Of a DNA stretch of 42,279 bases, positions 3,607 to 20,144 are shown piece by piece (position 1 is the first letter of the stretch; every line of letters starts with the position of its first letter). Position numbers and translations under genes: made by a program. Location: contig CALVIX010000008.1 of the NCBI GenBank assembly GCA_944331895.1, positions 1 to 42,279 of the forward strand, written 5' to 3'. Source of the DNA: an uncultured Bacilli bacterium. GTDB lineage: Bacteria > Bacillota_I > Bacilli_A > RF39 > UBA660. Below the pieces are notes generated by a model. That model saw only the letters and a program-made list of their open reading frames with translations, ran no database searches and was not told the DNA's origin.

Positions 3607-4959
3607 CTATTTAATTATTTTTTTTACTTCTTCCATATCGTCAAAATGTATTTTTTCATTTCCTATGACTTGATAAGTTTCATGCCCTTTTCCAAGCAAT
3701 AACAGTATATCACTTTTTTGTAACATTTGTATACCCCTATCGATCGCTTCTTGTCTATTTACAATCTTTTCATAGTTTGTATTGTCAAGTCCATGTTCCA
3801 TACCCTCTAAAATACGTTCCGGATCTTCATGCCTTGGGTTATCACTTGTAAAAATTACATAATCTGATAAATCCGTAGCGATTTTTGCCATCTCAGGTCT
3901 CTTCGCTCGATCTCGGTCTCCACCACAACCAACAATCGTATAAATTTTTCCATGCGGAATTTCTAATACTGCACGAATGGCATTTAAAACCGCATCTGGT
4001 GTATGAGCATAATCGACAATCACAAGTGCATCGTGATAACGTACGCATTCCATCCGTCCTCGGGGTTCTTCCAGTAGAGAAACTGTTTTTCTTATCTCAT
4101 TTTCATCTATTTTTAAATCTTCTAGCAGCATAATAACAACGAGCATGTTATATAAATTATGCTTCCCAATTAACTTCATTTGATACGTTTTCTCAGCTCC
4201 GTTGGAAACGACAAAATCAGTATGCCCTAAACTATATGTCATATTCGTAATTCGATAGTCACCATTGTGAAATCCATATGTAACATTATGATTTTCAGGA
4301 AGTAAAAAATAGTGATGATAACCATCATCCACATTGATAAAACATCTTCCTTGCCCTTTTAGTTTTCGAAATAACTTTTGCTTCGCAAGTGCGTAATTTT
4401 TCATATTGCCATGATAATCTAAATGATCCTGTGTTAAATTTGTAAATACGACATAATCAAATTCTAATCCTTCTACTCTATTCATATCCAAAGCGTGACT
4501 ACTGACTTCCATTGCGACAAATTCGCAGCCTTCTTTTTTACATGTCAATAACATGTCATATAAGTCTAGAATATCTGGTGTCGTATTGGATAGATCACAT
4601 ATTTTTTTATCGATATAAAAACCGATGGTTCCAATGTACCCACACTTTCTACCAAGTCTATTTAATGCTTGATGAATGAGATAACAACTTGTCGTTTTCC
4701 CGTTCGTACCCGTAATTCCAATGAGTTTTAAATCCTTAATTTGATCATAATATTCATTTTTTAAAGTTTGTACTAAATATTCATGTGTATCTTTTACTAT
4801 ATATGTCTCAACCGAATATAATCCTTCTTCTACTACAACTTTACTAGCCCCTTTTTTAATCGCATCCTCAATATAGGAGTGTCCATCGTGATTTACTCCA
4901 CGTAGTGCGACAAAAATATCACCTTTTTTCACTTTTCTAGAATCCGTTTTGTATTTCAA
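3607..4959 (-). CDS. murE: UDP-MurNAc-tripeptide synthetase MurE, DNPR type (predicted meso-DAP adding)
   Basis: 450 aa Mur ligase that adds the third stem residue to UDP-MurNAc-L-Ala-D-Glu. The P-loop GTNGKTT is at 84-90, EVSSHAL at about 151-157, the likely carbamylated lysine in YALAKQKLF at about 193, and DYAHTPDA at about 316-323. The specificity motif is DNPRHEDP at 373-380. DNPR is the signature of meso-diaminopimelate ligases, its Arg contacting the second carboxylate. The start is TTG at 4959 with AGAGGTGAT upstream; no better codon exists. It is cotranscribed with mraY. A second, different MurE lies at 5310-6698. Confidence 0.93.
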   Translation of the reverse strand: MKYKTDSRKVKKGDIFVALRGVNHDGHSYIEDAIKKGASKVVVEEGLYSVETYIVKDTHEYLVQTLKNEYYDQIKDLKLIGITGTNGKTTSCYLIHQALNRLGRKCGYIGTIGFYIDKKICDLSNTTPDILDLYDMLLTCKKEGCEFVAMEVSSHALDMNRVEGLEFDYVVFTNLTQDHLDYHGNMKNYALAKQKLFRKLKGQGRCFINVDDGYHHYFLLPENHNVTYGFHNGDYRITNMTYSLGHTDFVVSNGAEKTYQMKLIGKHNLYNMLVVIMLLEDLKIDENEIRKTVSLLEEPRGRMECVRYHDALVIVDYAHTPDAVLNAIRAVLEIPHGKIYTIVGCGGDRDRAKRPEMAKIATDLSDYVIFTSDNPRHEDPERILEGMEHGLDNTNYEKIVNRQEAIDRGIQMLQKSDILLLLGKGHETYQVIGNEKIHFDDMEEVKKIIK

Positions 4960-4979
4960 AATATCACCTCTCGGTGTAT

Positions 4980-5008
4980 TTTATGTAACTCCTAGGCGAA
5001 TGGTTCAA
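4980..5008 (-). promoter_or_regulatory. Possible promoter of murE-mraY
   Basis: Minus-strand TTGAAC (5003-5008), 17-nt spacer, CATAAA (4980-4985). The -35 sits in the T tract of the preceding terminator. CATAAAAT also resembles a SigE -10 box, but no SigE -35 is evident. Weak either way. Confidence 0.35.
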
Positions 5009-5032
5009 AAAAGCAATAGATTTCTCTATTGC
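5006..5032 (-). terminator. Terminator after the murE2-GNAT operon
   Basis: Minus strand GCAATAGA-GAAA-TCTATTGC followed by TTTTTT. It separates the GNAT gene from murE-mraY. Confidence 0.85.
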
Positions 5033-5043
5033 CCTACATGATT

Positions 5044-5310
5044 TCATTTCACAAGATATTGTTTTTCAGGATGCTTTTGAAACCAATATGCAGCATAGCT
5101 ACAACGCGGAACGCACTTTTTTTGAAGTGGCTCTAAATAAGTGATAAAAGCCTCCATCAGTTTTTGCGCTAAATGTTTCCCTCGATAAGCTTCATCGACA
5201 TATGTATGCGTTACGACAATCAGTTCTTCCTCTTCCTCAAAACATAATCTTCCGATGATTTTTTCATGATCTATTATTTGAACTTCATCTTCTTTTATTT
5301 TTATCACCAT
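5044..5310 (-). CDS. Small GNAT-family N-acetyltransferase-like protein (YjdJ type)
   Basis: 88 aa, the size of the short GCN5-related family that consists of little more than the acetyl-CoA binding core. DEAYRGKHLAQKLM (about 39-52) matches the pyrophosphate-binding motif A, and CSYAAYWFQKHPE (about 70-82) is the typical C-terminal signature. The substrate is unknown. Its ATG overlaps the murE2 stop (TAATG), so the genes are translationally coupled. That hints at a role near cell-wall precursor or diamino-acid metabolism, but this is inference from position only. Confidence 0.8.
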   Translation of the reverse strand: MVIKIKEDEVQIIDHEKIIGRLCFEEEEELIVVTHTYVDEAYRGKHLAQKLMEAFITYLEPLQKKCVPRCSYAAYWFQKHPEKQYLVK

Positions 5311-6698
5311 TACATATTTGCTCCTGACGTTTCTTTTTCTTTTAAATATTTTTCCACTTCTTTTCTATCATTGAACGGAATTCTCTGATCTTTATATATG
5401 ATTACTTCCTCATGCCCTTTTCCAAGAATCAATAAAATATCATTTTCTTGTAATAACTCGATACCACGAGCTATCGCCTTCCCACGATCTAAGATCACTT
5501 CGTAATTTGATTGTTTTAAACCTTTGATCATATCATCGACAATCTGATTTGGATCTTCATTGTGAGGATCATCAATTGTAATAATCGCATAGTCAACTAA
5601 CTTGGTTACCAAATTCGTCATAAGCGGTCTTTTTAAACGATCTCGATCTCCAGTACAGCCAAAGACTACAAATATCTTTCCTTTCGTCAGCGGTTTTACC
5701 GTCGTAATAATCTTTTCGACTGCATCCGGTGTATGTGCATAATCGATGATAATATTATTTGATTTATATGGTACCGTCTCCATGCGACCAGCAGGCGCTT
5801 TCAAAGTCGGTATGACACTTAATAATGTCTCAGGATCAATTTCTAACTCTGTTAAAACTACGATCGTAACAAGTAGATTATAAATATTGTAATCTCCTAG
5901 CATCGGTGATACGACATCATATTCTTTTCCTAAGTGGCGATATGTAAATGTCGTATGAATGTGATTCATATGGTGTTTTATAACTTGGTAATCACCACTT
6001 TGAAATCCATATGTAATATTATGATTCTCTGGAAGCAAGTACACATCTTTATATGCATCATCCGCATTTACAATTGCGATTCCATTTGGTTTTAACATGT
6101 GAAATAACTTTTGTTTCGCAAGTGCATACTGTTCCATCGTCTTATGGAAGTCCAAATGATCCTGCGTCAAGTTAGTAAATACCGCATAATCGAATTCTAA
6201 TCCTTCTACTCTGCGTCTACAAAGTCCATGACTGCTTACTTCTAATACGACATATTCTACCTTTTGCTCTACACAAAAAAGGAAAATATTATATAGTTCT
6301 AATATGTTTGGTGTTGTATTTGGCAAACTTCTGATTTTATCCCCAATATAAAAACCAACAGTTCCAACATAAGCTGCTTTTTTTCCTACTTTATTTAATG
6401 CATTGTGAAGGAGAAATGCACTCGTCGTCTTTCCGTTTGTACCTGTAATTCCAATGAGCTTTAAACTCGATATCTCTCTATCATAATTTTCTTTTAAATA
6501 ATTGATCAAATAAGTTAAAGTATCGTCGACAATTACAGTTTCTACCTCATAGTTTCCTTCTTCACATATAATTTTAGTCGCTCCGTTTTCGATTGCTTTA
6601 TCGATGTATTGGTGTCCATCTGTATCAACTCCACGCAAAGCTAAAAAAGTATCTCCTGGTTTTACCTTTCTCGAATCTATTTTTATTGCTACTTCCAT
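5310..6698 (-). CDS. Second MurE-family ligase with DDPH specificity motif
   Basis: 462 aa, a full-length Mur ligase paralogous to the murE next door. The P-loop GTNGKTT is at 86-92, EVSSHGL at about 153-159, YALAKQKLF at 191-199 and DYAHTPDA at about 319-326. The third-residue motif reads DDPHNEDP (376-383) instead of DNPRHEDP. L-Lys-type MurE enzymes carry non-Arg variants such as DNPA or DDPN, so this copy probably adds a residue other than meso-DAP (Lys, Orn or similar), which is inferred. ATG at 6698 is chosen (AAGGTG 5 nt upstream) over GTG at 6713. It has its own SigA promoter and is coupled to the GNAT gene. Confidence 0.88.
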   Translation of the reverse strand: MEVAIKIDSRKVKPGDTFLALRGVDTDGHQYIDKAIENGATKIICEEGNYEVETVIVDDTLTYLINYLKENYDREISSLKLIGITGTNGKTTSAFLLHNALNKVGKKAAYVGTVGFYIGDKIRSLPNTTPNILELYNIFLFCVEQKVEYVVLEVSSHGLCRRRVEGLEFDYAVFTNLTQDHLDFHKTMEQYALAKQKLFHMLKPNGIAIVNADDAYKDVYLLPENHNITYGFQSGDYQVIKHHMNHIHTTFTYRHLGKEYDVVSPMLGDYNIYNLLVTIVVLTELEIDPETLLSVIPTLKAPAGRMETVPYKSNNIIIDYAHTPDAVEKIITTVKPLTKGKIFVVFGCTGDRDRLKRPLMTNLVTKLVDYAIITIDDPHNEDPNQIVDDMIKGLKQSNYEVILDRGKAIARGIELLQENDILLILGKGHEEVIIYKDQRIPFNDRKEVEKYLKEKETSGANM

Positions 6699-6720
6699 AC
6701 ATTCACCTTCCACTTATTAT

Positions 6721-6749
6721 ATTGTACTAAATCTACTACTTGAATACAA
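6721..6749 (-). promoter_or_regulatory. SigA-type promoter of murE2-GNAT
   Basis: Minus strand TTGTAT (6744-6749), 17-nt spacer, TACAAT (6721-6726), about 22 nt before the ATG. Confidence 0.6.
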
Positions 6750-6762
6750 GTATTGGCAGAGT

Positions 6763-6798
6763 AAACAAAAAATATAATACATCATTGTATTATATTTT
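6763..6798 (-). terminator. Terminator after the 6825-7283 gene
   Basis: A 13-bp perfect stem AAAATATAATACA (6769-6781)/TGTATTATATTTT (6786-6798). On the minus strand the 3' arm runs into TTTTTTG. Confidence 0.8.
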
Positions 6799-6824
6799 CT
6801 ATATTGCTTTTTGTCTTTAATATT

Positions 6825-7339: not shown

Positions 7340-7690
7340 TTAGTCACGCGGCTTAAAAATCAGTGCAAAGATAAAGGAAAATACAATGGCGGCAATAATT
7401 CCCGTAGATGTTAAATCAAACATTCCCATTGCAAGCCCCATAATACCAATATCGCTAGCACGAGCAAGAGCACCATGAATCAGTAAATGTCCAAAACTTG
7501 TAATTGGAACCAATGCACCACCACCAACCCATAAAATAACTTTGTCGTAAAATCCAAACATATCTAAAAATGTTCCGATTACAACAAATAATGTTGTTAC
7601 ATGTCCAGGGGTTAATTTCGTATTATCTAAAATGATTTGACCAAGTAAACAAACAAATCCTGCAAACAAAAATGAATAGACATAGATCAT
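7340..7690 (-). CDS. spoVAE: Stage V sporulation protein AE (SpoVAEb type)
   Basis: 116 aa integral membrane protein of the SpoVA complex, which moves Ca-dipicolinate into the forespore and out at germination. It has several hydrophobic helices with the family pattern LTPGHVTT, GGGALVPITSFGHLL and a KPRD C-terminus. It resembles SpoVAC in architecture, as expected of this family pair. The start overlaps the spoVAD stop by 4 nt, giving a C-D-E operon. Only these three members of the SpoVA set are present here. They are the conserved core of spore formers. Confidence 0.92.
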   Translation of the reverse strand: MIYVYSFLFAGFVCLLGQIILDNTKLTPGHVTTLFVVIGTFLDMFGFYDKVILWVGGGALVPITSFGHLLIHGALARASDIGIMGLAMGMFDLTSTGIIAAIVFSFIFALIFKPRD

Positions 7691-8676
7691 TCAATCGCCT
7701 CCAAACTAATAGCATGTGCGATACTTGGAATAGATAACTTCTGATTCACCATCGTCGGCGACATGAGAGCACCAGTTGCAATCAATAGCACATGTCGATA
7801 TTCTTTTTTTCTCATCTTGTCAAAAATATAACTATATGTGACAAGTGGAGCACATGCAGGACCACTACTACCCGCCATACGATCTTCACTTTCCACATCA
7901 TATAATAGACATCCTGTATCTTCATAATTTTTTAACGTGATATTATACTCTGTCTGCATAAAATCAATTAGAATTTGTTTCCCATAATCCCCTAGATCTC
8001 CTGTTAAAATCAAATCATAATATCCTATTTCCCTTTTCGTATCTTTTAGATGTTGATACAAAGTATGTGCAGCTGCTGGTGCCATAACTGCTCCCATGTG
8101 AAACACATCTTTCATCCCTAAATCTTGCACCGTTCCTATCGTGGCACTATCTACTTTAATATTTGCTTTATTATAACTTAAATAAGCGCTAGCACTCCCT
8201 GTTGCTGTAATGGTTGCCGTCTTCGGTTTAGGTCCTCCGTATTCTACTGGATAACGAAATTGTTTTTCTGCCGCATTGTTGTGCGAAGAAACACTCGTAA
8301 TACAGTTTTTAATCATTTTTGACTCTATCATATTCGCACCAATGATGAGACCTTCAACACTGCTTGCACAAGCACTGTATACTCCTAAAAAAGGAATACC
8401 AAGACGACTTGCGGCGTAGTTTGATGCGGTAATTTGGTTTAACAAATCACCTGATATAAATAAATCCACATCAAATCTAGTCTTTCCTATTTTTAAAAGA
8501 AGTAAATCTACACTCTCTTCGATCAATTTAGATTCCGCTTGCTCCCAAGTCGGCTGTTTAAAATAAAGATCATCGTAACTTTTGTCAAAATAATTATTGA
8601 GCGGTCCTTTTTGTTCGTAAGGACCCGTTATCGTACTTGTTTCATTGATATATACATTTTTATAGCGAATTGTCAT
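7687..8676 (-). CDS. spoVAD: Stage V sporulation protein AD
   Basis: 329 aa soluble protein with a thiolase-like fold. In Bacillus, SpoVAD binds dipicolinic acid and works with the membrane subunits SpoVAC and SpoVAE in the forespore inner membrane. Visible elements are the thiolase-like nucleophile region VYSACASSVEGL (about 99-110), YPVEYGGPKPKTATITATGS, a late GSSGPACAPLVTY and the C-terminal GALMSPTMVNQ. AGGAGGAT lies 5 nt before the ATG. It sits 2 nt after spoVAC and overlaps spoVAE. Confidence 0.95.
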   Translation of the reverse strand: MTIRYKNVYINETSTITGPYEQKGPLNNYFDKSYDDLYFKQPTWEQAESKLIEESVDLLLLKIGKTRFDVDLFISGDLLNQITASNYAASRLGIPFLGVYSACASSVEGLIIGANMIESKMIKNCITSVSSHNNAAEKQFRYPVEYGGPKPKTATITATGSASAYLSYNKANIKVDSATIGTVQDLGMKDVFHMGAVMAPAAAHTLYQHLKDTKREIGYYDLILTGDLGDYGKQILIDFMQTEYNITLKNYEDTGCLLYDVESEDRMAGSSGPACAPLVTYSYIFDKMRKKEYRHVLLIATGALMSPTMVNQKLSIPSIAHAISLEAIE

Positions 8677-8678
8677 AT

Positions 8679-9119
8679 TTATCCTCCTAACACTATCAAC
8701 CGAATAAAACCTACAATGTAAGCACTGACGACTCCGAAGATAATCACGGATCCTGCTAATTTAAACATGTTAGCTCCAATTCCTGTAACCAGTCCTTCCT
8801 TTCGATACTCTAATGCCGCACTCATCATAGCGTGCGCAAATCCCGTAATTGGTATAATTAACCCAGCTCTAGCAAAACTAACCCATTTATCAAAAAAGCC
8901 AAGTGCCGTTAACAAACACCCTGCAAATACGAGCGTAATGATCATAAAGACAGAAGCATTCGAAGTTGAAATATGGAAGTAATATGAATAGATATCGATT
9001 AAGAATTGTCCGATCACTCCCATCATTCCTCCTGTTAAAAAAGCAATCATTCCATGATAAAGACGAGGTTCTTTTGGCGTATGTTGTGCTACTAGATCTT
9101 TATACTTGTTCTTTTCCAT
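8679..9119 (-). CDS. spoVAC: Stage V sporulation protein AC
   Basis: 146 aa polytopic membrane protein. SpoVAC is known in Bacillus as a mechanosensitive channel component for Ca-dipicolinate passage. The short soluble N-terminus contains the family motif LVAQHTPK (about 9-16), followed by four or more hydrophobic segments with GFFDKW and IIPITGFAHAM. It is the first gene of the spoVAC-D-E operon, with TTAGGAGGAAT before the ATG and a SigG/SigF-like promoter about 20 nt further upstream. Confidence 0.94.
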   Translation of the reverse strand: MEKNKYKDLVAQHTPKEPRLYHGMIAFLTGGMMGVIGQFLIDIYSYYFHISTSNASVFMIITLVFAGCLLTALGFFDKWVSFARAGLIIPITGFAHAMMSAALEYRKEGLVTGIGANMFKLAGSVIIFGVVSAYIVGFIRLIVLGG

Positions 9120-13720: not shown

Positions 13721-13738
13721 AAAAAAGGCTTACGCCTT
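13721..13738 (-). terminator. Terminator overlapping the flippase stop codon
   Basis: Minus strand AAGGC-GTAA-GCCTT followed by TTTTCTTTTTTC. The TAA of the flippase gene (13730-13732) is in the loop. Confidence 0.7.
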
Positions 13739-15370
13739 CTTCAAATGTAGTTTCTTCAAAATTCTGTCTAAAATATCGTTCCCAAATACTTCTTGGAATA
13801 CACGATGACGATATCCGAGAATACAATATATCACTGCCCCTACTCCAGCATATAAAATCGTAATCAAAATAGCAATCCACCTAGACTGTACAGCTACAGG
13901 AACAAATAAATTCATAATACTTAATATTCCTATCATAACTCCCGTAATCAGTAATACTTTCATTGTCAGTACAATCGTTTTACGATAAGCGACTTGATAA
14001 TCTATTCTCATAATAATCAATATCAATAAAACTGATATAGATTGTGTTAATAAGGTTGTGAAAATTGGTCCGTAATAAGCAGGAATTCCTATAGAGTAAC
14101 AAAGTCTCATGATTGGAACATTTAAAAGATATTTCACGATAAAGCTTCCACCTAAAATACCCATTCCTAGTTTTGTTCGATTCATCGTCTGAATTAAATT
14201 CACAAGAGTCGTATAGAAAGAGAATGTAATTGCTTGGATAATATATAACCTAAAAATATCTATACTGAGCGCATTATATCCATAAAAGATTACCCAAACA
14301 GGAGCGGCTAAAAAGCTAAGTCCAAATGCCATTGGAATCGTCGTTAAAGAAAGTGCCTGTAACGCTTGGTTCATCTTACGACTAACGCCCTTCCAGTTCT
14401 TCTTAACATAACTACTTGCGATATTTGGAATTAAGCTCACGGTAATTCCCAGGGCAATCGATGCGACGATCATATTCAACTTCGTTGCCCATGTTGCAAT
14501 TACACCAATTGCCGTTTCCGTTGTAACCGCATCATATCCTAAATCTGTAAGCCCTGATACGACAGTCAATGTATCGACCATTCCGTATGCGGAATTCATA
14601 ACATCGATCATGACAAAAGGAAGTGCATAATATATAATTTTCTTTAAAATGGTCTTTCTTGAAATTCTCGGTTCATGACTTGCTACCAACGCAGTTTCTT
14701 CTATCTTCTTTTTATTTTTCTTAAGGACACGTAGCAAATAAAAATACGCGACCAAACAACCGATCGTCGCACCAAACACGGCGATTCCAACAGCTGTTTC
14801 TAAAGATAGATGAAATACTTGTAAAGCGACAAAACTTCCTGCGACGATGACGATGACTCGGACCAATTGTTCTATGACATTAGCCATCGTTGGAGGCACC
14901 ATAATTTTATGCCCTTGAAAATAACCTTGCGTTACACTTTCGATCGGTACAATTAAAAGTGCGGTTGCGACAATTCTAATGACTAGTGTAACTCCCTCTA
15001 ATGTATTTCCACCTTGAATGTCTCCTAAAATTATACTTGCAATCGTAGGTGCGAAAATCACGAGAACGAGGAAAAAGAAAATTCCAAGTCCAATGATGAC
15101 AAGAGATGCCATTTGAAATGCCCTCTCTTTTGCCTTGACATAACCAAGTGTATTATATTCACTAATTACCTTGCTGACAGCAACGGGAATTCCACTATTG
15201 GAAAGACTTAAGAAAATCGCATAAATAGAATATGCATAACTATACAAAGCCCCTCCTTGTGTTCCGATGATTGCATAAAAAGGAATAACATATACAAGAC
15301 CTATGATCTTACACAAAATAATTCCGATCGTCGCTATCATTGCTCCTTCTAAAAACGTATTTTTCTTCAT
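13730..15370 (-). CDS. MOP-superfamily lipid/polysaccharide flippase, SpoVB-like
   Basis: 546 aa with about 14 hydrophobic segments, the size and layout of the SpoVB/YtgP/MurJ branch of the MATE/MOP flippases. These move undecaprenyl-linked precursors across the membrane. Conserved-type stretches include GGALYSYAYSIYAIFLSLSN and SNSGIPVAVSKVISEY near the N-terminus, and GYFQGHKIMVPPTMANVIEQ. It lies 15 nt after a cse60-like gene, which makes a sporulation (SpoVB) role likelier than general MurJ duty. That is inference, and YtgP/Amj-type alternatives remain. Confidence 0.82.
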   Translation of the reverse strand: MKKNTFLEGAMIATIGIILCKIIGLVYVIPFYAIIGTQGGALYSYAYSIYAIFLSLSNSGIPVAVSKVISEYNTLGYVKAKERAFQMASLVIIGLGIFFFLVLVIFAPTIASIILGDIQGGNTLEGVTLVIRIVATALLIVPIESVTQGYFQGHKIMVPPTMANVIEQLVRVIVIVAGSFVALQVFHLSLETAVGIAVFGATIGCLVAYFYLLRVLKKNKKKIEETALVASHEPRISRKTILKKIIYYALPFVMIDVMNSAYGMVDTLTVVSGLTDLGYDAVTTETAIGVIATWATKLNMIVASIALGITVSLIPNIASSYVKKNWKGVSRKMNQALQALSLTTIPMAFGLSFLAAPVWVIFYGYNALSIDIFRLYIIQAITFSFYTTLVNLIQTMNRTKLGMGILGGSFIVKYLLNVPIMRLCYSIGIPAYYGPIFTTLLTQSISVLLILIIMRIDYQVAYRKTIVLTMKVLLITGVMIGILSIMNLFVPVAVQSRWIAILITILYAGVGAVIYCILGYRHRVFQEVFGNDILDRILKKLHLKKA

Positions 15371-17370: not shown

Positions 17371-17394
17371 AAAGAAGTTTCAAAACTTCTTTTT
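17371..17394. terminator. Bidirectional terminator between convergent genes
   Basis: AAAGAAGT/ACTTCTTT stem with A-rich and T-rich flanks serves the plus-strand lipoprotein gene and the minus-strand dehydrogenase gene (stop 17393-17395). Confidence 0.75.
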
Positions 17395-18442
17395 ATTTGA
17401 TATATTTTAGTTCTCCCATACGTGAAGTTGGAATAAATCCAGCATCTGCTTTGATTACATCCGGAATTCTATTTACAGTCGTTGCACAAGTCAACTCTAC
17501 AGTAGCAGGTTTTTCGATCACAAGCGTCGTATCTGGTTCTCCATAAATCGTCCACTCATTGCGATCGAATTCATCTTTGTTGTATACCTTTCCAATACAT
17601 TCAGTTTCTAATGTGATCCCCTCTTTTGTCTCAGTTGTAACCACTGCACTCATTCCTGTTGCCATACCAGCTTTTACTGTCATACCAAGCGTACTAGATT
17701 CGATATCGTAATCGTTGAATTGTGGCACGCATTTTTGTCTTTGGCTTACTACAGTAAGTCCCAATTTATCGCAAAGCCATCCATTGACATTCCACATATA
17801 TGATGGTGCATATGCTCCACTTTCAATTACTTTTTGTCTTTCTTCATCCGTTATTTCATCTGCTGATGCGATCTCTTTTTCAAACTCTTCCTTCGATAAA
17901 CCTGCACCATGAGCTTTTGCTAGCGCAATCCCGTAATCTTCTACATTATAAGAAGAACTTCCCTTGATCTTAGTAATGTTGTGACTTGCACCAGCCAATG
18001 TCGTAATTAAATTTCCCCAGAACGCATCTTGATATCCACTTCCTGTAATCGTACAATTATTTTCTTTTGCTAATTGATCGATTTTGTTTGTCAAAGTAGG
18101 ATTAGAATTCATTGGATAGAATGCCTCTTCACAAGTTGTAATTGCATTCACTCCACATTTTGCACATGTCATAAGAGCTTCTTCGAGATCTGATAGTAAG
18201 CTCATCGTCGTAACGATCGCACAATCTGGCTTTAATTCTGTAAGTATTTTTTCTGCATTTTTTGCATCCTCTATGATGACTCCAACTTTATCAGTTCCCA
18301 TCACTTCCCCGATATCTTTTCCTATGACATCAGGATTGATATCAACTGCTCCTATGATCTTTCCACCATTTTCAATGACATAGCGCATTGTATATACGCT
18401 CATCTTTCCACATCCATATTGAAATATTTTTAAATCTTTCAT
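17393..18442 (-). CDS. NAD(P)-dependent amine dehydrogenase, 2,4-diaminopentanoate dehydrogenase-like
   Basis: 349 aa. The N-terminal Rossmann fold begins KIFQYGCGKMSVYTMRY (about 5-21), and AITTCEEAFYP, SGYQDAFWGNL and YNVEDYGIALAKAHG follow. This pattern is shared by 2,4-diaminopentanoate dehydrogenases of clostridial ornithine breakdown and their dihydrodipicolinate-reductase-like relatives. In that pathway the enzyme deaminates 2,4-diaminopentanoate to 2-amino-4-oxopentanoate. No other ornithine-pathway gene (aminomutase, thiolase) is nearby, so the substrate is uncertain. A YfcC-type transporter lies upstream behind a terminator. Confidence 0.7.
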   Translation of the reverse strand: MKDLKIFQYGCGKMSVYTMRYVIENGGKIIGAVDINPDVIGKDIGEVMGTDKVGVIIEDAKNAEKILTELKPDCAIVTTMSLLSDLEEALMTCAKCGVNAITTCEEAFYPMNSNPTLTNKIDQLAKENNCTITGSGYQDAFWGNLITTLAGASHNITKIKGSSSYNVEDYGIALAKAHGAGLSKEEFEKEIASADEITDEERQKVIESGAYAPSYMWNVNGWLCDKLGLTVVSQRQKCVPQFNDYDIESSTLGMTVKAGMATGMSAVVTTETKEGITLETECIGKVYNKDEFDRNEWTIYGEPDTTLVIEKPATVELTCATTVNRIPDVIKADAGFIPTSRMGELKYIK

Positions 18443-18551
18443 ATGTCTCCACCTTTCTTATATTACACTCATATTATAACATTTCTAGGTAATAGATTTT
18501 ACTGCAAAGACAAAATATGACATTTTTTTCCATCTTGCTTTACACTTTTGA

Positions 18552-18580
18552 CAAAAAAAAAGAGAATCTTTTGATTCTCT
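18552..18580 (-). terminator. Terminator of the YfcC-family transporter gene
   Basis: Minus strand AGAGAATC-AAAA-GATTCTCT then TTTTTTTTTG, starting 1 nt after the TAA. Confidence 0.9.
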
Positions 18581-18581
18581 T

Positions 18582-20144
18582 TTAGATACATAAGAACATT
18601 ACAATAATGACGGCAACAATTACAACAAATAATTGTAAGAATAGTTTCCAAGCATATTTTAAATATTCTTTGTATGATATTTTTAAATAAGATAATCCAG
18701 CAATTAACATTAAGCTTGTTGGCACGATCAACATAACAAGTCCATAGAATGATTGCATAATCAATCCAATAACTGGATAAATAGTAGCATCTGTAAATCT
18801 CGTTCCCAATGTTGTAACTAGTGAATTTAATAAGTATGGGAAGTCATTGTAGAATAAACTTCCAATTGCTGCAACTAATGAAGTTGTCAAGAAATTAAAT
18901 TCAGTTGTCATATTGAGTAAGAAATCACTAATCGTTAAGAATAGATTTCCTGATGTTTGGATATTTACGACAAGTGCCATAATAATATTTGCAATTGTCA
19001 CATAAATAGCTACTGGTAGAACCTCTTTAGCTCCCTCGATAAATGCATCTAATCCATCCTTGAATTTTACATTATATAACCATCCAATGAGTAATGTAAG
19101 AATGACTAATACCATTCCAAGCTCTGTAATCGTCCAATACCCAAGAGGACTCAAACTTCCAAGAATGTTTTGTAAGATTGCATATCCTTTAATTTCAACA
19201 GCCATAATAGATTCATAAACTTCTTCGAAAAGTGTAACTCCAAATCCATAACGCCAGTTAAACATTGCAACTAATAAGAAAATAAATGTTAAAATAAGTA
19301 CGATGGCAAGTGGCCAAATACTCTTCTTTTTCTCATCTTTTTCATTATAAAGAGGAATAGAAATCTTATCTTCTTTTGTTGTTTCTGCCTTAGTTGCAAC
19401 CACTTTCTTCTCTTTTGCTGCCTTTGTATTTTTAGCTGTTTTTTTAGCAGTTTCCTTCTTAGTTGATTTTTTCTCTGCCTTCACGGCTTTCGTAGTCTTC
19501 TTCTCTGCTTTAGCTTTTTCTTTTACTTCAATTTTCTTAAGACGTTTCGCACTCGTTACGTATAAGATAAATACGATCGTAGTAACAGCTAACATCGCAA
19601 TTTTAAACAAAATACTATTGTGAACATCGATTCCAAAATAATAATTGACATATCCACATACATTAAATCCATATGTAGAACCAATGGTTCCAACGATCAT
19701 TGCACCAATCGTTGCCATAAGTGCTGTCATCTTGTCATATCCAAGTAATAAAATTGCACTAATGAATAATGGAACGATCACCAAGATTGCAAAATTTAAT
19801 CCTGAGATAGATGATAAGATTGCAAATAATACAATGCTAAGAATTAAAAATCTTTTTTCGTGCCCTTTAAACTTCTTCGTCATTGCATTTAGTAATTTTG
19901 TATATACTCCACTTTGATTCATGACTCCGTAAAGTCCACCAATCAAAAGTACGATAATTCCATAAATGGCATAGTTACTAACTGTAAGTAATGGAACACG
20001 GATAAGATCAAACAATCCTACAGGTGCTGTTACATCTAGTGCAAATGTTCCACTTGAGTAACTTCCAATTGGAATTAACCAAGAAAGTACAACGAAAATT
20101 AAAAATACAATTCCTAATGCTTTTAATAAACCATACTTTTTCAT
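18582..20144 (-). CDS. YfcC-family (AbgT/DcuC-like) carrier with Lys/Ala-rich cytoplasmic loop
   Basis: 520 aa, about 12 hydrophobic segments. The start KKYGLLKALGIVFLIFVVLSW and the reentrant-type segments GSTYGFNVCGYVNYYFGI and SLFYNDFPYLLNSL fit the YfcC family, often annotated as basic amino acid or C4-dicarboxylate carriers. Its true substrate is not established. Residues about 198-275, between the two membrane halves, form an unusually long loop of Lys, Ala and Thr (repeats such as AEKKTTK, AEKKSTK, KKTAK), like a histone H1 tail. It has AAGGAGG before the ATG. Neighbouring the diaminopentanoate-dehydrogenase-like gene, it may import an amino acid. Confidence 0.75.
   Translation of the reverse strand: MKKYGLLKALGIVFLIFVVLSWLIPIGSYSSGTFALDVTAPVGLFDLIRVPLLTVSNYAIYGIIVLLIGGLYGVMNQSGVYTKLLNAMTKKFKGHEKRFLILSIVLFAILSSISGLNFAILVIVPLFISAILLLGYDKMTALMATIGAMIVGTIGSTYGFNVCGYVNYYFGIDVHNSILFKIAMLAVTTIVFILYVTSAKRLKKIEVKEKAKAEKKTTKAVKAEKKSTKKETAKKTAKNTKAAKEKKVVATKAETTKEDKISIPLYNEKDEKKKSIWPLAIVLILTFIFLLVAMFNWRYGFGVTLFEEVYESIMAVEIKGYAILQNILGSLSPLGYWTITELGMVLVILTLLIGWLYNVKFKDGLDAFIEGAKEVLPVAIYVTIANIIMALVVNIQTSGNLFLTISDFLLNMTTEFNFLTTSLVAAIGSLFYNDFPYLLNSLVTTLGTRFTDATIYPVIGLIMQSFYGLVMLIVPTSLMLIAGLSYLKISYKEYLKYAWKLFLQLFVVIVAVIIVMFLCI

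Follow-up and report, generated by a model that had tools for sequence, protein, structure and literature searches.

Two neighboring murE genes with different third-residue sites in an uncultured Bacilli bacterium, and their possible division between growth wall and spore cortex

The contig CALVIX010000008.1 of an uncultured Bacilli bacterium, analyzed here over its whole 42,279 nucleotides (nt) and called the window, carries two murE genes, murE-A and murE-B, whose products are predicted to be UDP-MurNAc-tripeptide synthetases with different third-residue preferences and separate control, A for the growth wall and B for the spore cortex. We lean toward this division with modest confidence. 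The duplication that produced the pair, a switch of two residues in A, a conserved -10 element before B and, in many relatives, a hairpin are established at the level of sequence; the enzyme activities, the amino acids added and the timing of expression are what we infer from these. The genome (G000; 1.12 Mb in 13 contigs, 83% complete) belongs to a family coded f1, from which 58 genomes, G000 included, were sampled. The genes concerned are as follows.

5310..6698, minus strand: murE-A, the DDPH copy, putative ligase of non-DAP type for the third residue (DAP, diaminopimelic acid); TIGR01085 475.6 bits, three Mur domains
5044..5310, minus strand: small GNAT open reading frame (ORF) between murE-A and murE-B; PF14542
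3607..4959, minus strand: murE-B, the DNPR copy, putative DAP-type ligase; TIGR01085 484.7 bits
2604..3596, minus strand: mraY, adjoining murE-B; TIGR00445 319.6 bits

The initial annotation had described two MurE ligases with DDPH and DNPR side by side, and both are indeed full-length, with the small GNAT ORF intervening. The two proteins are 53% identical, and each exceeds the cut-off of the NCBIfam murE subfamily model TIGR01085 (257.3 bits) and has three Mur domains, a P-loop and the carbamylated lysine. Residue alignment also upheld the statement that P-loops and catalytic motifs are intact in both copies, since A and B share the P-loop GTNGKTT, the carbamylated-lysine stretch AKQKLF, DYAHTPD and the UMAG-binding residues. 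Both would be working synthetases. The start of murE-A was assigned, by our own reading, to ATG at 6698, because GTG at 6713 falls within the Shine-Dalgarno stretch, and murE-B starts with TTG at 4959.

The difference between the two lies at the third-residue site. In the alignment, DDPH of A corresponds to DNPR of Escherichia coli MurE, and B has DNPR itself. We take the DAP-contact residues of the E. coli enzyme to include N415 and R417, which bind the second carboxylate; on this list B retains every contact, and of the N and R expected of a meso-DAP-adding MurE, B has both and A neither. When 16 A rows were compared with 17 B rows (G036 and G046 left out, a residue counted as fixed at 85% or more), only four positions were fixed differently: V350/I, T354/G (E. 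coli G387), D382/N (N415) and H384/R (R417). In addition, YQ after GKGHE is gone from A, with variable replacements. The motif has D as its second and H as its fourth residue (DDPH or DDLH) in 16 of all 18 A copies, and the two deviating copies are G036, with EDQR, and G046, which is degenerate. MurE structures place the second carboxylate of meso-DAP against residues 2 and 4 of DNPR (PMC3829189). Because A has lost these residues by changes from N to D and from R to H, it should reject meso-DAP, and we consider this very probable from the sequence.

Which amino acid A takes instead is a separate matter. The initial annotation had equated a motif lacking Arg with Lys-type enzymes, which is too simple: the lysine-adding MurE of Staphylococcus aureus has DNPA and an acidic pocket, and its A409R mutant is reported to gain no DAP activity (PMC3829189), while the Thermotoga maritima LD-lysine ligase aligns with DDPR. 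Because of the A409R result, the motif alone fixes no specificity, and we discarded it as proof of the amino acid. A would accept a diamino acid whose side chain carries a plain amine; for the vegetative wall this would be L-lysine, the likeliest substrate though unproven.

Both A (498 bits) and B (520 bits) exceed the cut-off of the NCBIfam DAP-ligase model NF001126 (373 bits), which would agree with both enzymes adding meso-DAP and A being a dosage copy only. However, this model cannot separate A from B, and 16 of 18 A copies have lost both carboxylate-binding residues, so that we regard a mere dosage copy as highly improbable. The Lys-ligase model NF010628 (cut-off 536 bits), which covers another lineage, gave 299 bits for A and 304 bits for B. 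Our assignment corrects the model-based annotation, in which both enzymes are DAP ligases.

The phylogeny of the two copies, computed with the motif columns excluded, places A inside the DNPR clade. In the large tree of 91 rows, support was 95 for the DNPR side and 100 for f1 A and B together, from which it follows that A arose by duplication of a DAP-type gene. A second DDPH lineage, from family f11, fell outside the DNPR clade, and a single common DDPH clade was rejected by a topology test on 43 of these rows (p-AU 1e-8); the DDPH of A is, by this sequence evidence, convergent with that of f11. The unity of A itself is less clear, because A formed one group with a support of only 87 in the 43-row tree, and in the 91-row tree the G007 copy stood apart from the other 17.

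The convergent f11 gene bears on whether the substrate of A might be L-ornithine, or some other short diamino acid, instead of lysine. We know of no characterized motif that matches DDPH, and any side chain with a plain amine would be compatible with an acidic pocket; the S. aureus enzyme takes ornithine weakly (PMC3829189). On the other hand, femAB is the tail-to-tail neighbor of the f11 DDPH gene in G067 and G089, and in G078 the two are 1.6 kb apart; these genomes also hold a DNPR murE, dapB, dapF, lysA and spoVAD. FemABX enzymes of known function act on Lys-type stems. With both sides considered, we find a short diamino acid in A quite unlikely.

In f1, 50 of the 58 genomes have a MurE. 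The A copy occurs in 17 of the 58, and in 16 of these together with the DNPR copy B (the exception is G036); the DNPR copy stands alone in 12. The same A-B-mraY order was found in the metagenome-assembled Bacillota bacterium isolate SIG208, the sole A-type genome reached in a scan of named genomes with general patterns, and the 16 f1 genomes plus SIG208 are hereafter the 17 two-ligase genomes. In 12 of them B comes directly after A with the two on one strand, and mraY adjoins B in 14, in keeping with the earlier remark that the DNPR copy travels with mraY. The intervening GNAT ORF is peculiar to the present genome in this neighborhood comparison.

Other f1 genomes have an older non-DNPR ligase, mostly DDPR or EDPR, which we call C-type. 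A and intact C-type genes are mutually exclusive among the 50 genomes with a MurE (A in 17, C in 17, both in none; p 1e-4, ancestry not corrected for). As A is never found with an intact C-type gene, it looks like a re-invention of that ligase, and the economical reading of the sequences is that the old non-DAP ligase was lost and then re-invented from a duplicate of the DAP-type gene. In one A+B genome, G028, a C-type gene is broken by a frame change, possibly through an assembly error.

Two further states were seen in f1. Four genomes (G008, G013, G017 and G040) have two C-type MurE each, one EDPR with GKGNE and one DDPR with GKGRD, and so represent another two-ligase state. Six (G003, G011, G021, G034, G047 and G049) have no MurE at E 1e-45, yet carry spoVAD and a FemAB-family gene; they are possibly wall-poor with retained sporulation genes, or incomplete.

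Separate control of the two genes is suggested by the elements upstream of each.

6766..6800, minus strand: terminator-like hairpin upstream of murE-A; fold -11.9 kcal/mol, z -5.1
6721..6729, minus strand: TAGTACAAT, conserved, housekeeping-type -10 upstream of murE-A; comparison with relatives
5007..5032, minus strand: terminator-like hairpin and U-run between the GNAT ORF and murE-B; fold -11.7 kcal/mol, z -2.9
4977..5004, minus strand: mother-cell (sigma-K/E)-type promoter-like site, AC at 5004 and CATAAAATA at 4985-4977; window scan
4966..4973, minus strand: Shine-Dalgarno of murE-B; own reading

Thirteen of the 17 two-ligase genomes have, upstream of B, the element CATANNNTA, which we take to be the -10 recognized by mother-cell sigma factors; in 12 of them it sits 36-44 nt ahead of the conserved DSR codons. 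The corresponding stretch contained it in none of 18 A copies, in 1 of 13 sole-ligase B copies and in 2 of 4 B copies beside a C-type gene; shuffled B sequences gave a mean of 0.64 of 17, with a maximum of 4. Conversely, TAGTANAAT precedes A in 9 of 18 copies and B in 0 of 17. An AC begins 17-19 nt before CATA in 8 of the 13 B copies with CATANNNTA. In Clostridioides difficile, a sigma-K promoter is described with a -10 of CATATAAT and a -35 of AC, the -10 sequences of sigma-E and sigma-K are very similar, and murE is entered under sigma-K/sigma-A (PMC3789822). The initial annotation had ranked a good SigA promoter before the DDPH copy above a weaker one for the DNPR copy, and this ranking is unreliable because sigma-70-like sites occur in the window at about the chance rate (42 found, against 33.5 +/- 6.8 in shuffles).

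In many relatives the stretch before B forms a hairpin, which often encloses CATANNNTA; the Shine-Dalgarno makes up its 3' arm, and a U-run comes after it. Its z was -3.5 to -7.9 in G001, G019, G028, G031 and SIG208, and about -2 in several others. The arms covary by eye: a Shine-Dalgarno of GGTGAT goes with a 5' arm of ATCAC, and GGTGT mostly with ACA, ACAC or ATAC. In read-through RNA the B Shine-Dalgarno was mostly paired, with a median unpaired probability of 0.03 (n=17), compared with 0.45 for A (n=16) and 0.46 for B without A (n=17, four B+C genomes included), p 6e-4, and it was more open in 12 of 13 cases when the RNA started after the -10. The window itself is arranged differently, with a separate terminator-like hairpin (5032-5007) followed by the AC and CATAAAATA. 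Expression of A and B as a plain operon had at first been taken as a counter to the spore idea, and was dropped on account of the hairpin and the internal -10. The hairpin has a precedent in the read-through hairpin of sigG (PMC5942855).

Linkage to sporulation genes was sought in relatives. Outside f1, spoVAD was present in 10 of 10 genomes with a DN-type MurE (DNPR, DNKR or DNSR) and in 0 of 10 without one; as only a few families are represented, these are not 20 independent cases. Between the two f13 genomes, however, DN-type MurE and spoVAD change together. A spoVD-like gene precedes the DN-type copy in 8 of the 9 two-ligase genomes from outside f1, the exception being G080. Six of the spoVD-like ORFs are truncated where the stretch ends; spoVD (TIGR02214) is their best model, and the truncation keeps them under its cut-off. 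Those of G075 and G089 were judged on their C-termini only. Inside f1, G015 and G026 have the order spoVD-murE(DNPR)-mraY-spoVE with spoVD and spoVE over their cut-offs, and G036, which is without spoVAD and SpoIVA, keeps A and is without B and canonical MurF.

These results can be joined in a mechanism. After duplication of the DNPR gene, A would have changed from N to D and from R to H at the residues for the second carboxylate of DAP, and B would have retained its DAP site. A terminator, a hairpin over the ribosome-binding site, or both would cut B and mraY off from A, and B would be transcribed from its own mother-cell (sigma-K/E-type) promoter; being so separated and so transcribed, B would serve mainly the cortex. 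A different arrangement has both ligases active during growth and loading whichever diamino acid is scavenged, giving a mixed wall. The proximity of A and B on one strand would fit this, as would the failure to find dapB, dapF and lysA in G000 (see below) and the 12 f1 genomes in which B is the sole ligase and hence vegetative. The different upstream elements of A and B, the hairpin over the B Shine-Dalgarno in read-through RNA and the spoVD linkage in relatives argue against it, and we judge such a mixed wall unlikely.

Several points weigh against the division between growth wall and cortex, among them the failure of the motif alone to fix specificity. The -10 is missing before four of the 17 B copies, the AC of the -35 falls mostly within a hairpin arm, the hairpin is weak or absent in G000, G010, G015, G030 and G053, and transcription starting where the -10 implies would give a leader of only ~15 nt. 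The spoIVA gene of G000, tried as a positive control for the -10, failed, as it carries CATATAGT instead of CATANNNTA. Inside f1, DN-type MurE is unlinked to spoVAD (29/35 versus 12/15), and so is A+B (15/16 versus 32/42, p 0.26). Relatives with B alone or C-type alone also carry spoVAD; two ligases are therefore not needed for spore genes in f1, and the idea that they are required was abandoned. Carrying two ligases is one of several solutions found in f1. Finally, none of dapB, dapF and lysA was over the cut-off in the 83% complete G000. The growth/spore split of the initial annotation thus stands in part: the loss of DAP residues in A and their retention in B, the -10, the hairpin and the spoVD/spoVE linkage speak for it, and the missing dapB, dapF and lysA and the single-ligase relatives with spoVAD speak against it.

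The supply of the diamino acids deserves comment, as the initial annotation had called for a check of dapF and lysA. Across the 58 f1 genomes, dapB was over the cut-off only in G044, dapF only in G012 and lysA only in G008 and G039, and the DAP supply (dapB, dapF) expected beside a meso-DAP-adding MurE was not found in G000. As these genes were not found, DAP and Lys would both need scavenging; DAP would be imported, or B would use something DAP-like. For RF39, the RFN20 family CAG-631 and ML615J-28, DAP-type walls with missing steps and scavenged muropeptides have been predicted (PMC10868615), and murE does not occur in the main text of that paper. We guess that f1 is near these orders. Fusobacterium uses lanthionine with a DAP-type ligase, and the complete DAP-type site of B in genomes without detected dapB and dapF would allow a DAP analogue such as meso-lanthionine where DAP synthesis is lacking. 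Scavenged DAP accounts for the same facts, and we consider an analogue very unlikely.

The division between growth wall and cortex can be extended further. The bacterium might build two chemically different walls from two diamino acids that it does not make, with a promoter nested in the ribosome-binding-site hairpin confining B to the mother cell, a cortex built on DAP or a DAP-like compound scavenged from the peptidoglycan of neighbors, and a re-invented non-DAP ligase. We offer this full version tentatively, and on balance doubt it.

MurF also comes in two forms. The canonical protein has about 450 amino acids, and a MurF-like protein of about 530, encoded between an alpha/beta hydrolase and ddl, has by our own reading a hydrophobic N-terminus in place of the first Mur domain. 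Both occur together in 15 of 17 A+B genomes (the canonical copy of G019 is partial), against 3 of the 33 remaining f1 genomes that have a MurE. Among genomes with a single kind of MurE, the DNPR-only ones have 8 canonical and 5 membrane-type MurF, and the non-DNPR-only ones 2 and 22; G005, G007 and G015 do not fit the two-MurF pattern. This hints at two parallel ligation lines, with shared ancestry inflating the count. The second MurF was considered as a cortex partner under a mother-cell promoter and rejected, since CATANNNTA stands close before canonical MurF in only 1 of 8 two-ligase genomes; in 2 more of the 8 it lies inside the preceding ORF.

The order alpha/beta hydrolase-MurF-ddl of the MurF-like ligase is conserved (L004 1216-2820, G000:C11; L255-L262), and this ligase is the sole MurF in many f1 members and in several non-sporulating Bacilli families. 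Directly before canonical MurF, a peptidase C26-type protein is encoded (L245 9596-10306, G000:C2) in 6 of 8 two-ligase genomes examined, and gamma-glutamyl peptides might be a source from which it frees amino acids. The head-to-head neighbor of murD is a FemAB-family gene (G000:C3:58940-61684, L005), and a FemAB gene of its lower-scoring class is seemingly present in most f1 genomes. As femAB was found in 58 of 58 f1 genomes, including those without MurE, it was discarded as a marker of Lys.

Elsewhere in the window, a sporulation marker lies outside the murE units.

7340..9119, minus strand: spoVAC, spoVAD and spoVAE; NCBIfam/Pfam

These genes are upstream of murE-A, but a hypothetical ORF and the terminator-like hairpin at 6766-6800 intervene, and membership of murE-A in the spoVA operon was rejected on this ground. 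SpoIVA and Spo0A are encoded elsewhere in the G000 genome. The window also holds a distant relative of 2,4-diaminopentanoate dehydrogenase beside a YfcC/DcuC-type transporter (17393-20144; possible ornithine/lysine breakdown), a SpoVB/MurJ-like flippase under both NCBIfam cut-offs (13730-15370), and, on the plus strand, a tRNA gene truncated at the contig end, of which the 3' part is present (1-73; Rfam tRNA).

If the division holds, wall chemistry would be switched between growth and spore by one duplicated gene and a short intergenic switch, and a two-residue peptidoglycan would become testable in a large family of small-genome Bacilli. It would also raise the question of where a spore former without dapB obtains its cortex DAP.

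A search of the literature, which left out most subscription papers, found no description of the f1 A-B arrangement and no paper on the two ligases of Lysinibacillus (Bacillus) sphaericus. This species has Lys in the vegetative wall and DAP in the cortex and produces a separate DAP ligase when it sporulates, and the present genome resembles it in having, in one spore former, two MurE-type enzymes with different DAP sites, the DAP-type copy bearing sequence signs of a tie to sporulation. Unlike in L. sphaericus, the second ligase is an adjacent copy of the DAP-type gene, an intergenic switch insulates the two from each other, and dapB, dapF and lysA were not found. The best solved-structure match of A is the L-/D-lysine ligase of T. 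maritima (PDB 4bub), which shares D for N at motif position 2 (DDPR), whereas A also has H for R and has lost YQ after GKGHE. A is like the lysine ligase of S. aureus (PDB 4c12; PMC3829189) in lacking the Arg of DNPR, and unlike that enzyme, which keeps N (DNPA), it is altered at both positions. Two-ligase Bacilli of families f3, f8, f11 and f13 likewise combine one DN-type and one non-DN MurE, with spoVAD in 9 of 9; there the non-DN gene belongs to an old, distinct lineage and lies far from spoVD-murE, whereas A of f1 is a young DN duplicate. In the Bacillus subtilis sigG leader, a hairpin hides the ribosome-binding site in read-through RNA only and not in RNA from the internal sporulation promoter (PMC5942855); sigG encodes a forespore sigma factor, whereas the gene here is a wall ligase with a mother-cell-type -10. 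The apparent insulation of murE-B from murE-A by a -10 and a hairpin is what is new here, and it supports a division of the two ligases between growth and spore.

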